This document shows, in pieces, positions 16,853 through 51,386 of a stretch of 64,000 nt of DNA; the first letter of the stretch is position 1; each line of letters begins with the position of its first letter. Origin of the DNA: Thiotrichales bacterium (GTDB lineage: Bacteria > Pseudomonadota > Gammaproteobacteria > Beggiatoales > Beggiatoaceae); the NCBI GenBank assembly GCA_016745035.1, contig JADGDE010000001.1:844507-908506 (forward strand), read 5' to 3'. The translations under genes were made by a program, and so were the position numbers. The notes under the pieces are model-generated. The model saw only the letters and a list, made by a program, of their open reading frames with translations. It had not been told where the DNA came from and did no database searches.

Positions 16853-18250
16853 TTATTTTTGTAAAAAATTCTCAACCCCATCCCAATCTTTAGGCACATT
16901 GCCAACCATCAGTTCGGCGCAGCGATTAAGGTATAAGCGAGCAGCTTTATCATCATTGTGGCGTTCTAATACTTGGTTAAATTGCACGCTTGCCTCGGCA
17001 AATTTGGCCTGTTGATAATAACTTAAGCCCATTTCAAAGGCGCGCTTATTACTCAGTTTTAACTTAAAATCACTTTTATTATCACCATCAAACACTTCAT
17101 AGACCCCAACTTGCTTGCTTTTGCCCTTCACTCGAATATTGCCAACAAAACGGTAATGATAATGTTTATTGTCGTGAAGATGTCGCAAGGTTTGCTTGCT
17201 GATAATAATATTAGCACCGTAATGTTTGGTCAGGCTCTCAAGGCGAGCGGCGAGATTCACTGAATCTGAAATCACCGTGCTTTGTAAGCGGGTGCGCTCA
17301 CCGATAATCCCCAACATTAATCGACCGGTATGAATCCCAATACCGATACGCACCTGAGGTAAATCGCGACTTTGTAAACTGATGTTATGGCGCGCCATCG
17401 CTTTACGAATGCTAATCGCCGCTTGCAAGGCATCTTCAGCATGATGACGGGGAAACAAAGCCATGACCGCATCACCAATATATTTATCTACAAAGCCATG
17501 GTGACGTTTAATGATGGGGCTAATTTGGCTTAAGCATTCGTTAAGAAAATTAAAATTTTCCTGCGGTGACATTTTTTCTGACATACTGGTGAAATCACGA
17601 ATATCTAAAAATAACACGGTCATTTCTTGCTGCACTTGATCCCCTAAACGCACCTCGGTAATACTTTTTTTATCTAAAAATATTAAAAACTCATGCGGGA
17701 CAAAACGCTCATAAACCGCATTTAAATCGCGCAACTCTTGAGTATAGGCATCGAGACGTTGTTCTAATTCAAAGGAGTTATTTAGAAGTTTGCTGACCAT
17801 CTCTTGGAGCTTGTCATTCTCAGCACAGACATAATTAGATAAATCTCGCTGCTCTAAGAGATTGGGCATTTTTTCGGCGATTTTGCTCAGTTGTAACTGG
17901 CGTTGGATTTTGGTGCTGATTTCATTGGGGCGAATCGGTTTACAAATAAAATCTTCAAAACCTTCTTTGAATAAATCTCCTGAGTCTGCTAATTCTTCTA
18001 TGCTAATCAGCAATAACAACGGAATATGTTGAAAGGCGTTTTGTTGTTTTAAATAGCGGCTTAATTCATAAATGCTGCCGCCAGGTTCATGCCAAGGTAA
18101 GACGACTAAATCCGGCGGGGTTTGAATGATTTGTTTCAGTCCAACGCTTAAGTCGCGCTGATAGTCTACCTCATAGTCCTGAGCTTTTAGTTGTTTAATT
18201 AAAACCGCTAAAATAATTTTATCTGGCTCGATAAGGTAGATACGTTGCAT
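16853..18250 (-). CDS. Pseudo-receiver plus class III adenylate/guanylate cyclase
   Basis: This 465-residue protein has an N-terminal receiver-like domain (about residues 1-120), a coiled linker (130-180), a class III nucleotide cyclase domain (205-370) and a short TPR-like tail. In the receiver the phosphorylated Asp position is Pro52 (PDLVVLPWHEPGG), although the conserved Lys is kept in ICKPIRP. The cyclase domain looks competent: metal-binding Asp216 and Asp260, Lys256 in DKYIGD, and Asn332/Arg336 in SVNLAARLE. It should make a cyclic nucleotide, probably cAMP, but cannot be switched on by normal receiver phosphorylation. The start lies 2 bp after the upstream kinase-like gene, so translation is likely coupled. 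Confidence 0.92.
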   Translation of the reverse strand: MQRIYLIEPDKIILAVLIKQLKAQDYEVDYQRDLSVGLKQIIQTPPDLVVLPWHEPGGSIYELSRYLKQQNAFQHIPLLLLISIEELADSGDLFKEGFEDFICKPIRPNEISTKIQRQLQLSKIAEKMPNLLEQRDLSNYVCAENDKLQEMVSKLLNNSFELEQRLDAYTQELRDLNAVYERFVPHEFLIFLDKKSITEVRLGDQVQQEMTVLFLDIRDFTSMSEKMSPQENFNFLNECLSQISPIIKRHHGFVDKYIGDAVMALFPRHHAEDALQAAISIRKAMARHNISLQSRDLPQVRIGIGIHTGRLMLGIIGERTRLQSTVISDSVNLAARLESLTKHYGANIIISKQTLRHLHDNKHYHYRFVGNIRVKGKSKQVGVYEVFDGDNKSDFKLKLSNKRAFEMGLSYYQQAKFAEASVQFNQVLERHNDDKAARLYLNRCAELMVGNVPKDWDGVENFLQK

Positions 18251-18252
18251 GA

Positions 18253-19470
18253 TCAAGCATCGTCAAGTTTTTGATAAGGCAGGTGAATGGTAAATAAACT
18301 GCCTTTACCTAAAATACTAGCAACCGTAATTTGTCCATTCATCATTTCTAGTAAGCGCTTGCTGATGCTCAAGCCTAGACCACCGCCACGGTATATTTGT
18401 TCTGGGCTTGAGTCTTCTACTTGTTTGAACAAGGCTAAAATTTTATTCAATTGTTTTTGGCTCATGCCAATACCGTTATCTTCAACTTCGATGGTCAATA
18501 AATCCGGGTTATCATCATGTACCCGTAAATATACATGGCCTTTTTCGGTAAACTTGGCTGCATTGGATAACAAGTTGATTAACACTTGGCGCAAACGCCC
18601 TAAATCGGCTTGAATCGTATGAATATGGTCAGGACAGTTGATATGCAATTGGTTTTGGTGGCGCTCGAACAAAACGATTGTGCCTTGCTCCAATTCATCA
18701 AATAAATCATGAATATCAAAGCGCTCAGAGAACATTTTTAATTGTCCTGCTTCCAACTTAGAAAAATCCAACACGTCATTCATCAAGCTAAGTAAGTGGC
18801 GACTGGCTTCGCCGATACGCTCTAAGTCCTCAACTTTATGTTGATCAAATTCATATTCCGCTTGTTCTCTGAGAATTTCACTATAACCAATAATAGCATC
18901 GACAGGGGCGCGCAATTCATAATTCATATTGGTGAAAAATTTACTTTTTGCATCATGCGCTTGCTCTGCCACTTCTCTGGCATATTCCAAGGCCTGTACC
19001 AAATTTTCAATCACATGACCTTTTTCGTCTAATTTATCTTTTTGTTTATCGAGCAATTGCCGTTGCTTAGTCACGATGCGTCCAAGATGGGCGAGATGAA
19101 TATAATTGTTAATTCGTGCTAGGGCTTCATCAACTTGATAAGGCTTATGCAAATAATCAATGCCGCCAATTTGCAAGCCCTCAACAATATCGACATCATT
19201 ATCATGGCTATTTTCCAGACAAAATAAAATCGGCGTATGTTGGTAATCGGGTAATGCCCGAATAGTTTGGCACAGATCAAAGCCACTTTTATCAGTAGGT
19301 GTCAGCGCAATTAAAACAATATCAACGGCTTGATGCATTAAGAGCTGCAAACTTTGTTCTTTGGTTTCAGTCGCAAAAACTTGAAAGCCCATATCGTGCA
19401 ATAAGCAAGACAGTTGCTGATAACTCTCTGTTTGCTCATCAACGATTAATAGATGGTGATGCGTTGGCAT
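18253..19470 (-). CDS. Receiver-HisKA-HATPase protein lacking phospho-acceptor residues
   Basis: This 405-residue soluble protein has a receiver-like domain (1-125), a coiled linker, a HisKA-type dimerisation domain (about 172-245) and an ATPase domain (285-400). The H-box reads NMNYELRAP, with Tyr184 (codon TAT) where the phospho-accepting His belongs. The receiver reads DIVLIALTPTDKSG, with Ala55 at the Asp site. The N box (LSNAAKF), G1 (DNGIGM, 331-336) and G2 (GGGLGL, 362-367) are intact, so ATP binding is expected. It is probably a nucleotide-gated scaffold or allosteric partner of the downstream cyclase. Both conclusions on activity are inferred. Confidence 0.9.
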   Translation of the reverse strand: MPTHHHLLIVDEQTESYQQLSCLLHDMGFQVFATETKEQSLQLLMHQAVDIVLIALTPTDKSGFDLCQTIRALPDYQHTPILFCLENSHDNDVDIVEGLQIGGIDYLHKPYQVDEALARINNYIHLAHLGRIVTKQRQLLDKQKDKLDEKGHVIENLVQALEYAREVAEQAHDAKSKFFTNMNYELRAPVDAIIGYSEILREQAEYEFDQHKVEDLERIGEASRHLLSLMNDVLDFSKLEAGQLKMFSERFDIHDLFDELEQGTIVLFERHQNQLHINCPDHIHTIQADLGRLRQVLINLLSNAAKFTEKGHVYLRVHDDNPDLLTIEVEDNGIGMSQKQLNKILALFKQVEDSSPEQIYRGGGLGLSISKRLLEMMNGQITVASILGKGSLFTIHLPYQKLDDA

Positions 19471-20040
19471 TTATTTAGCCTCAAGCTGTTTCAATACATA
19501 GCTCCAATCAAACGCGACTCCGGGGTCAGTTTTACGTCCAGGGGCAATATCACTATGCCCGACAATACGTTGATTACTAATGGCAGGATAATAGTATTGT
19601 AAACTTTGTATTAGTTTTATTAGTTGTTGGTATTGTTTATCGGTATAAGCCAAAGTATCTGTGCCTTCTAACTCAATACCAATGGAAAAATCATTGCAAT
19701 TTTCTCGCCTCTGAAACGTTGATACGCCCGCATGCCAAGCACGTTTATCAAAGCCAACATATTGTACCACTTCACCATCACGTCGAATCAATAAGTGTGA
19801 TGAAACCTCCAAACCCTCTAAATCGGCAAAGCTGGGGTCAGCATCCATGTCTAAACGATTACAAAATAAATCGTCAATATAGCTCCCCGCAAACTGTCCT
19901 GCGGGCAAGCTAATATTATGGATAACGAGAAGATCAATGGGGGTGTTTTCCGGGCGCAGGTTAAAATTGGGCGAGGGACAGTGGCGAGTGCCGCTAAACC
20001 AAGCTTTTTCAGGAACCAGCTGAAATTTATCCGTACTCAC
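19471..20040 (-). CDS. ampD: 1,6-anhydro-N-acetylmuramyl-L-alanine amidase AmpD
   Basis: This 189-residue cytoplasmic amidase keeps the zinc ligands: the His in LLVIHNISLPAGQFAG, and the His and Asp in VGHSDIAPGRKTDPG. Length and sequence match AmpD. It cleaves the stem peptide from anhydro-muropeptides during cell-wall recycling; in many bacteria its substrates signal wall damage. The start is GTG 20040, overlapping the mltG stop by four bases (GTGA). Its stop abuts the next start (TAAATG), so kinase-like and cyclase genes are translated right behind it. Confidence 0.95.
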   Translation of the reverse strand: MSTDKFQLVPEKAWFSGTRHCPSPNFNLRPENTPIDLLVIHNISLPAGQFAGSYIDDLFCNRLDMDADPSFADLEGLEVSSHLLIRRDGEVVQYVGFDKRAWHAGVSTFQRRENCNDFSIGIELEGTDTLAYTDKQYQQLIKLIQSLQYYYPAISNQRIVGHSDIAPGRKTDPGVAFDWSYVLKQLEAK

Positions 20041-48908: not shown

Positions 48909-49349
48909 ATGTGGTTAGCTCATGTGACCGTTGCCGCTGTGATTGAAAACCCACAAGGGCAATTTTTGTTGGTTGAAGAGCACATTGACCAGCAAGCGCT
49001 GTTTAATCAACCCGCTGGACATTGGGAAGCAAACGAGAGTTTGGTCGAGGCGATAAAGCGGGAAGTCTTGGAAGAGACCGCACGTGATTTTAGCCCTTCA
49101 CATATCGTTGGCATATATGACTATACCAGCGCTAATAATGACACCACGTATTTACGCATTGCCTTTGCTGGCAGTGTTTCCGAACAAATGGCGGGCAGAG
49201 CTTTTGACTCTCCCATCGTCGCCACCCATTGGCTAGATGTGCCACAAATTGCCGCAAGGACTCTGCGCAGCCCCTTGGTGCAGCGTTGCATTGCTGACTA
49301 TAAAGCGGGTATCCGCTACCCTCTAGGATTGCTCCAGCATGTGGGTTAA
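48909..49349 (+). CDS. nudJ: NUDIX hydrolase NudJ
   Basis: From ATG 48909 the protein has 146 residues and matches NudJ in length. The NUDIX box reads GHWEANESLVEAIKREVLEE with TARDF following, so the terminal Gly of the box is Ala. NudJ releases phosphate from thiamine pyrophosphate-type and nucleoside di- or triphosphates in the cytoplasm. Its 3' end overlaps the convergent GGDEF gene by 27 bp. Confidence 0.9.
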   Translation: MWLAHVTVAAVIENPQGQFLLVEEHIDQQALFNQPAGHWEANESLVEAIKREVLEETARDFSPSHIVGIYDYTSANNDTTYLRIAFAGSVSEQMAGRAFDSPIVATHWLDVPQIAARTLRSPLVQRCIADYKAGIRYPLGLLQHVG

Positions 49350-51386
49350 AGGCAGCGGTTGTGCCAATTCAAAGCCTTGAACATAATCTATTTTTAACTG
49401 TTTCAAAATCGGCAAAATCTCATCGTCTTCAACCGTGGTCGCAATGGTTTTTAAGTTTAATTGCTGAGCTAATTGCTGTATTGCTGCCACCATGACTTTA
49501 TCCACAGGGTCTTTGCTAATATTCTGAATTAATTGTCCGCTGATTTTAATAAAATCAAAGGGGATTGTTTTGAGGCTGTTGAGCATGATAGCCCCTGTAC
49601 CGAACTGGTCGAGTCCAAAATGGCAGCCATAGGGTTTAAGGGTGTTGATAAAGTGCTGTAAACCACTGAGTTCGGTCGATAAGGCCATTTCATTAAATTC
49701 AAAATAAAATTGCGGCAAGGGCAGCGGTTGTTGTTGTAATTTCTGTACCACTAAAGCCGCGAATTGCCCATCGCCCAAAGTTTGGTTACAAATATTGATA
49801 AAAAATAGGGTATCTGTCGGCAGTGATTCGACGTGCATGGTTAACCATTGAGTTAATTTTGTGATCACCCAGGCATCGATTTCTGCTGATAACTCATAAC
49901 GTTCGGCAGCGCTTAAAAAGGTGTCTGGCAATAACAGTTCTTCTGATTCTTTACGATAAAGGCGTAAAAAAAACTCATGTCCTCGCACACGATGATCTAA
50001 ATCGTAGATTTTTTGTTGTAACAAACAAAACTTGTCTTCAGCCAAGCCTTCTTTAATACTGTTAAGCCAGTGAATGGGTTTATTTTCATCTTGGTCTTCA
50101 TCATCTTTATAAAGCTGTACTTGCCCTCGACCTGCGCGTTTGGCCGCCAAACAGGCATGGTCAGCGGTGACCAGTAGTTTATTGTGGTTATGTTGTTCGG
50201 TATTAATTTCAACAATGCCGATACTAGCGCCAACACTAAAAACATGGTTATCCCAAGAAAACTTAAATTCAGCCACATGCTGACAAATTTGTTCTGCAAT
50301 CCGTAAGGCTTGTTTACTGGGGCAATGTTGCAGCAAAAAACCAAATTCATCACCACCTAAACGCGCCACAATATCGCCTTTTCGCACTTGTCTTTGTAAT
50401 AATTGACTCAGTTGCTGGAGTAGCACATCGCCTGATTTATGTCCGCAGGTATCGTTGACGATCTTAAACCGATCCAAATCTAAATATAATAAGCTATGCA
50501 CCCGCTCTTTTTTTTCTGTTAATAAACACAATTGTTTGAGGTGTTTTTCAAATTCTCGGCGATTATATAAATGGGTCAGGGCATCGTGGCTGGCTTGGTA
50601 GGCAATACTTTCTGCCATGCGCTGACGCTCGGTGACATCATGAAAAACCAGCACCATTCCCAGTGTCTCACCATGACGGCTGCGCAGAGGAGAGGCATTG
50701 TGCTCTATGACGAAAGTTTGCTGTTTGTCTTTATGCTGTAGCAAGACCTGTTCGGCAATAACCTCGCTGGTATCGTTGACATAGGGTAAATTTAGGCGCT
50801 GTTTGCTGTCTTTATCAATCAGGTTAAACACATCTAAGAGAGCCTCTCCTTGTGCCTGAGCGAGTTGCCAGCCGGTGAGTTTGCTGGCGATGGGATTTAA
50901 GTATTCAACTTGCTGTTTAGCATTGGTGGTGATGACCCCATCACCGATAGATTCTAGGGTAATTTGGGCTTTTTCTTTTTCATCAAATAAAGCTGTTTCT
51001 GCACGCTTGGCACTGAGAATATATTCAATTCGATTCCGTAACACATCCCAGTTAATCGGCTTCATGACATAATCAGTTACGCCAGCTGCATAAGCTCTAT
51101 CAACCCAATCGCGTTCTCCATAACCTGTCACCATAATCACGGGGATATTTTGCCCCAGTTCCGTGCTGCGAATTTTTTCACAGGCACTGATACCGTCTAA
51201 TACAGGCATATCCGCATCCATCAAAATCAAATCAATCGGTTGATTTTTCTGAAATTGCTCTAATGCTTCTAACCCATTGGTCGCAGTTTTGACTTGATAA
51301 CCCTGTTTTTCTAAAGAAAACTTAAGGGTCGTCAATAAAATAGGCGAATCTTCAACAGCTAAGATAGTATTGACAGGTTTACTCAT
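49323..51386 (-). CDS. REC-PAS-GGDEF protein with degenerate EAL domain
   Basis: This 687-residue soluble protein has an intact receiver (Asp57 in LILMDADMP), a PAS domain (about 140-255), a GGDEF domain with an unbroken LGGDEFGF signature, and a C-terminal EAL-like domain. The EAL signature reads GHEFFLRLYR in place of GxEALLR, the catalytic DDFGTG is DQFGTG, and the EGVE motif reads TTVE. So it should make c-di-GMP when phosphorylated but not degrade it; the EAL part may bind c-di-GMP. It overlaps the upstream gene by eight bases, so a relay between them is likely. Confidence 0.92.
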   Translation of the reverse strand: MSKPVNTILAVEDSPILLTTLKFSLEKQGYQVKTATNGLEALEQFQKNQPIDLILMDADMPVLDGISACEKIRSTELGQNIPVIMVTGYGERDWVDRAYAAGVTDYVMKPINWDVLRNRIEYILSAKRAETALFDEKEKAQITLESIGDGVITTNAKQQVEYLNPIASKLTGWQLAQAQGEALLDVFNLIDKDSKQRLNLPYVNDTSEVIAEQVLLQHKDKQQTFVIEHNASPLRSRHGETLGMVLVFHDVTERQRMAESIAYQASHDALTHLYNRREFEKHLKQLCLLTEKKERVHSLLYLDLDRFKIVNDTCGHKSGDVLLQQLSQLLQRQVRKGDIVARLGGDEFGFLLQHCPSKQALRIAEQICQHVAEFKFSWDNHVFSVGASIGIVEINTEQHNHNKLLVTADHACLAAKRAGRGQVQLYKDDEDQDENKPIHWLNSIKEGLAEDKFCLLQQKIYDLDHRVRGHEFFLRLYRKESEELLLPDTFLSAAERYELSAEIDAWVITKLTQWLTMHVESLPTDTLFFINICNQTLGDGQFAALVVQKLQQQPLPLPQFYFEFNEMALSTELSGLQHFINTLKPYGCHFGLDQFGTGAIMLNSLKTIPFDFIKISGQLIQNISKDPVDKVMVAAIQQLAQQLNLKTIATTVEDDEILPILKQLKIDYVQGFELAQPLPLTHMLEQS

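Follow-up and report, generated by a model that had tools for sequence, protein, structure and literature searches.

The window analysed here is a stretch of 64,000 nucleotides from a bacterium of the family Beggiatoaceae (Thiotrichales bacterium, contig JADGDE010000001.1), and the gene pair described below lies on its minus strand, as does ampD. It carries a kinase-like gene of 405 codons (18253..19470), which Pfam and an AlphaFold2 model resolve into a receiver domain (REC), a long signalling helix, a DHp domain and a CA domain, followed by a cyclase gene (16853..18250) encoding 465 amino acids arranged as a pseudo-receiver, a helical linker, a class III cyclase domain and a helical, TPR-like tail. 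Residues of the cyclase are counted from the ATG at 18250, the listed TTG start being 6 bases upstream. The TAA stop of ampD (19471..20040) abuts the ATG of the kinase-like gene with 0 bases between them, and 2 bases separate the TGA stop of the kinase-like gene from the ATG of the cyclase. Because these junctions are so tight, ampD and the two signalling genes are probably expressed as a single transcript, and the kinase-like and cyclase genes are probably also translationally coupled. Scans for promoters and terminators gave no excess over shuffled sequence.

Pfam recognises REC, HisKA and HATPase_c domains in the kinase-like protein, each above cut-off, with HisKA scoring 51.6 bits and REC (PF00072) 54.9 bits. 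The first-pass annotation had proposed that the pair has exchanged all three of its phospho-acceptors, His for Tyr184 and two Asp for Ala55 and Pro52, and the codons confirm each exchange. Both kinase replacements were read from the codons and from the alignment of homologues: GCG for Ala55 (19306..19308) in the N-terminal pseudo-receiver (residues 6-122; 19105..19455), and TAT for Tyr184 (18919..18921) in the H-box. Two further changes were not on that first list, namely a Glu (E12) at the second acidic residue of the receiver, which is Asp in 34/34 homologues, and T188A (GCC, 18907..18909), which replaces the H-box Thr four residues past the His position. The H-box Thr of HisKA kinases has a role in phosphatase activity, and since T188A removes it a phosphatase action of the protein is also doubtful. 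Over the H-box region as a whole (residues 178-191; 18898..18939) the substitutions are A180T, S183N, H184Y, T188A and N191D, with E185 and R187 kept. The CA domain (residues 289-400; 18271..18606) retains the residues of its ATP site, N299 and N303 of the N box, D331, G333 and G335 of G1, F348 of the F box and G364 and G366 of G2; all 34 homologues have the same residue at each of these positions, so that the earlier description of intact N, G1 and G2 boxes holds and extends to the F box. The AlphaFold2 model (mean pLDDT 84.7) has an unbroken helix from REC to DHp (residues 113-206), and its structural matches include LvrB, a REC-controlled kinase and the best full-length match, as well as HK853, RetS and DivL. 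The protein is thus a pseudo-histidine kinase in the sense of a HisKA/DHp fold with its acceptor His replaced (H184Y).

In the cyclase, Pfam recognises REC at 35.8 bits, with Pro52 in place, and Guanylate_cyc (PF00211) at 91.4 bits, both above cut-off. The pseudo-receiver, delimited by Pfam and by alignment of orthologs, occupies residues 1-120 (17891..18250), and Pro52, which replaces the phospho-acceptor Asp, is encoded by CCT at 18095..18097. The cyclase domain (residues 205-390; 17081..17638) has the full set of class III catalytic residues, with the two metal-binding Asp (D216 and D260), the substrate Lys and its Thr/Asp partner (K256 and T325), the Asn (N332) and the Arg (R336). The Lys/Thr pair is of the adenylate kind, the predicted structure is a confident model, and its top structural matches are mostly adenylate cyclases, the guanylate cyclase Cya2 matching too. 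We therefore describe the protein as a predicted adenylate cyclase and infer cAMP as its product. A cyclic-nucleotide output would have possible readers, since the genome carries 18 cNMP-binding domains. A frameshifted or decaying cyclase is ruled out by the open frame and the conserved catalytic domain. PF00072 domains without the acceptor Asp (PsR/ALR) are present in both proteins of the pair, which does not constitute a functional two-component system, the His donor and the Asp acceptor being absent from both genes. For this reason His-Asp transfer within the pair is almost certainly absent, judging from the residues present, and to this extent the proposal that the pair works free of phosphotransfer is upheld.

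The genome has 95 HisKA domains, and His is missing in 3 of the 91 that were aligned (five weak domains were left out of the HisKA count and two failed to align), being replaced by Tyr in the kinase of the window and by Leu and Asn in two others. Among the loci sampled, 155 of 167 receiver domains keep their Asp. According to published figures the site is missing in 0.9% of HisKA and 2.0% of REC domains (PMC12632262). If the losses were independent, three of them in a pair of adjacent genes would be expected at about 4e-6, a figure that can serve only as a rough guide as losses within one pathway are not independent. Single losses are ordinary; three within one tight gene pair are not. The second His-less kinase (L203:2804-5149(+), contig C90 of the same genome; 'ANMNLELRTP') is apparently membrane-bound, and the gene downstream of it encodes two cyclic-nucleotide-binding domains, part of an FAD-type reductase and ferredoxin-like Fe-S motifs. 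The third (L204:2824-5100(+), contig C11; 'ISNEIRSP') seemingly has Asn for Asp in its C-terminal receiver as well ('LLINCK'). Elsewhere, four loci (L053, L060, L061 and L079) encode a REC followed by a tandem pair of cyclase domains, of which the first is altered (GDG/GDR, with Asn or Arg lost) and the second may be intact; the first is possibly a regulatory, dead cyclase domain. Within the window itself, a protein of REC-GGDEF-EAL type (49323-51386, minus strand) has an intact GGDEF motif, and its phosphodiesterase half looks inactive, with the EAL region reading 'HEFFLRL' and 'QFGTG'.

Comparison with relatives of the cyclase clarified the age of its pseudo-receiver. When 43 genomes of the family, from 25 genera, were searched (the order sample consists of these same 43 genomes), three further full-length orthologs came to light, in the genomes G015, G006 and G012. 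Those of G015 and G006 stand apart with scores of about 885-915 bits, the next match having 422, and that of G012 was assigned by a split match together with its position in the tree. The class and phylum samples, in which few candidates were scored per genome, yielded no further full-length ortholog. The four proteins form one clade (support 100/99) in a tree built from 45 cyclase domains, and the sister clade consists of proteins of about 1,100 residues in which a REC with its Asp retained directly precedes the cyclase. The cyclase gene of G012 adjoins lon and ppiD, and in the window lon lies 7.2 kb off with ppiD beyond, a weak synteny that agrees with the orthology. Another REC-cyclase relative, from a different genus (G034:C227:28398-29693), has four in-frame stops and is apparently a decaying copy.

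Across the four genera the receiver Asp site reads Pro in the window and Ser, Ala and Thr in the three orthologs, and the N-terminal acidic pair of the receiver has been lost variously. The metal, base and transition-state residues of the cyclase, all six, are identical in the four members, in agreement with the earlier view that they are intact, and invariant just where the receiver Asp is gone. Receivers of this clade evolve far faster than the cyclase domains, the window branch being 1.68 in the receiver and 0.27 in the cyclase domain. The placement of these sequences shows that the cyclase receiver lost its Asp in the common ancestor of the four genera. Because the Asp is missing from all four orthologs and the catalytic residues are invariant, the pseudo-receiver is old and maintained, released from phosphorylation chemistry and kept in every one of these genera. 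None of the other three genomes has such a kinase directly beside the cyclase, so the cyclase does not in general need one.

The history of the kinase is a different one. His, the H-box Thr and the receiver Asp are kept in 34/34 full-length kinase homologues, and the window protein has none of them. The closest homologue, in G015, shows the highest identity (about 47-48%), is sister to the window kinase at 97/92 and keeps both His and Asp. This placement is less sure owing to the long terminal branch of the window kinase (1.89 versus 0.28 in its sister), although the highest identity and the proximity of the loci agree with it. In G015 a distance of 2.1 kb separates the kinase gene from the cyclase ortholog, a proximity that we estimate would arise by chance about once in 1,000; the kinase gene is on the other strand, and its neighbours are a TonB-type receptor, a YfiR-like protein and a further kinase. 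Among the 34 full-length homologues compared there was no close relative carrying the Tyr, and a scan of the named genome contigs returned distant kinases only. The kinase losses are recent: its His and Asp went later than the Asp of the cyclase receiver and, as far as seen, in this kinase alone. A single joint event for the three sites is rejected by the kinase and cyclase trees. It had been anticipated that a loss peculiar to this copy, with His and Asp kept in orthologs, would count against a changed mechanism; that is the situation of the kinase, and it is not that of the cyclase, in which Asp is kept in 0 of 4.

The changes in the kinase are unevenly spread. When each domain was fitted on the same tree, the window branch measured 2.43 for REC, 0.73 for DHp and 0.63 for CA, compared with 0.24, 0.11 and 0.29 in the sister. 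Among the positions at which at least 94% of the kinase homologues agree, those changed in the window number 9/22 in REC, 7/31 in DHp (five of the seven within the H-box stretch 178-191) and 3/32 in CA, and the contrast between CA and the rest weakens as the conservation cut-off is tightened (p = 0.001, 0.011, 0.032, 0.085 and 0.16). This pattern is suggestive, though not decisive, of a kinase that gave up phosphotransfer and kept its ATP domain. Fast change mostly in REC, together with the keeping of the N, G1, F and G2 boxes, argues against simple decay. The idea of a changed mechanism therefore survives in part: the cyclase shows no decay, and no part of the kinase is better preserved than its ATP domain, but the three losses were not one coupled event.

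Several characterised systems resemble parts of this pair. Like DivL of Caulobacter (PMC4211667), the window kinase has Tyr for His in the H-box, retains the N, G1, F and G2 boxes and has no phosphotransfer through that site. DivL has neither kinase nor phosphatase activity and yet binds a response regulator specifically through its DHp surface (PMC4211667). It differs in having PAS domains ahead of the kinase region and Tyr (or Ala) across its orthologs, and in acting through DivK~P in cell-fate control, whereas in the window a REC precedes DHp, the Tyr is known from this genome only and the neighbour is a cyclase. The window kinase is not a DivL ortholog, as it has a REC, Pfam found no PAS domain in it and its nearest homologue has His. 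The layout of REC, signalling helix, DHp and CA is that of LvrB of Leptospira, in which REC drives coiled-coil formation (PMC13269768); LvrB, however, is switched by phosphorylation through a working REC and H161, and the window protein has A55 and Y184 at these two sites. Other bacterial pseudo-receivers or aspartate-less receivers share the Pfam-recognised REC fold without an acceptor Asp (PMC12632262, PMC4395418), but the one described here precedes a class III cyclase in the same protein and has been retained in four genera. PleD, composed of a REC, a pseudo-receiver and a diguanylate cyclase, likewise places a pseudo-receiver ahead of a nucleotide cyclase, but it also has a working receiver and makes use of a diguanylate cyclase, where the window pair has no working receiver and a cyclase of class III. 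The same class of cyclase occurs in CyaC of Spirulina (cyclase domain 1wc0) and in the REC-cyclase hybrids of the family; the hybrids of the sister clade keep the receiver Asp, whereas the window encodes kinase and cyclase as two proteins, neither with an acceptor left.

Taken together, it is plausible, if somewhat short of an even chance, that a pseudokinase resembling DivL and a class III cyclase with a pseudo-receiver, encoded in one operon, form a signalling unit free of His-Asp phosphotransfer. The pseudokinase (REC-DHp-CA, with Tyr for His) would keep its dimer helices and ATP-binding domain and be co-translated with a predicted adenylate cyclase bearing a maintained pseudo-receiver. Docking would most likely take place through its DHp surface, as in DivL, with the pseudo-receiver of the cyclase as the first candidate partner, and would set the geometry of the helical linker between receiver and cyclase, such that cyclic-nucleotide output would track the conformation of the pseudokinase. 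The conformational input may be ATP/ADP occupancy or a partner bound to the pseudokinase's own pseudo-receiver. ATP occupancy is possible as an input, but intact ATP motifs are no proof of nucleotide sensing since DivL keeps these motifs and yet binds an ATP analogue weakly (PMC4211667). The fuller proposal, of a two-component system turned contact-only switch in which the pseudokinase reads ATP/ADP or a partner and sets the cyclase through its pseudo-receiver with no phosphate chemistry at any step, is rather unlikely. In favour of the pair model we count the substituted acceptor sites and T188A, the clade-wide loss of Asp beside invariant cyclase residues, fast change that falls mostly in the kinase REC, the confident models of both proteins and the structural matches of the kinase, the tight junctions, the proximity in G015 and the precedent of DivL; against it stand the three of four genera without an adjacent kinase, the opposite strand and other neighbours of the G015 kinase, the lack of a close relative with the Tyr form and the cut-off-sensitive p values.

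It could be instead, although we think it rather improbable, that the kinase-like gene is a decaying remnant, its selective value gone once the cyclase receiver had lost phosphorylation, and that the cyclase is constitutive or set by expression. The earlier loss of the cyclase Asp in all four genera, the long terminal branch of the kinase and the retention of the cyclase without such a kinase directly beside it in three genera are what this predicts. A neutral remnant, however, is expected to lose equally conserved sites at similar rates in all domains, and here the frame of 405 codons is open and most changes cluster in REC and the H-box, the CA branch being 0.63 against 0.29 in the sister and every ATP-box residue checked being kept. 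Function as a working regulator is somewhat favoured over a fading remnant. No better placed than decay is the possibility that the pseudokinase acts on another kinase or regulator, as a RetS-like heterodimer with a HisKA kinase or a sensor of a phosphorylated response regulator, and shares only a transcript with the cyclase. The many HisKA domains of the genome offer possible partners, the model matches structures of RetS (TM 0.81 by target length) and DivL, and DivL reads DivK~P (PMC4211667), but a cyclase with its own pseudo-receiver lies just two bases away and the same two families occur near each other in G015, favouring joint function. That Tyr184 is itself phosphorylated, making this a tyrosine-phosphorylating protein with a histidine-kinase fold, is highly improbable in spite of its hydroxyl and the intact ATP domain, as DivL with Tyr at the same place is without autokinase activity (PMC4211667) and the cyclase receiver has no acceptor for onward transfer.

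Pseudokinases and pseudo-receivers are already known, but a pair of this kind is apparently undescribed; in the titles and abstracts of the open-licence literature we found none that joins a pseudo-receiver adenylate cyclase to a histidine kinase. What survives is a pseudo-receiver maintained in four genera and here co-encoded with a kinase that, by its residues, is phospho-dead, and the pair displays an order of loss, receiver first and kinase later. Because acceptor residues have been lost and the ATP-binding and cyclase domains are intact, it suggests signalling by contact rather than by phosphate. How bacterial pseudo-receivers switch was called a mystery in a 2025 review (PMC12632262). 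The pseudo-receiver of the window is joined to an enzyme whose product can be measured and lies two bases from a pseudokinase, and among its relatives G015 has an intact kinase close by while in G006 and G012 none of the kind adjoins the cyclase, which makes regulation by contact alone directly testable by cyclase assay.
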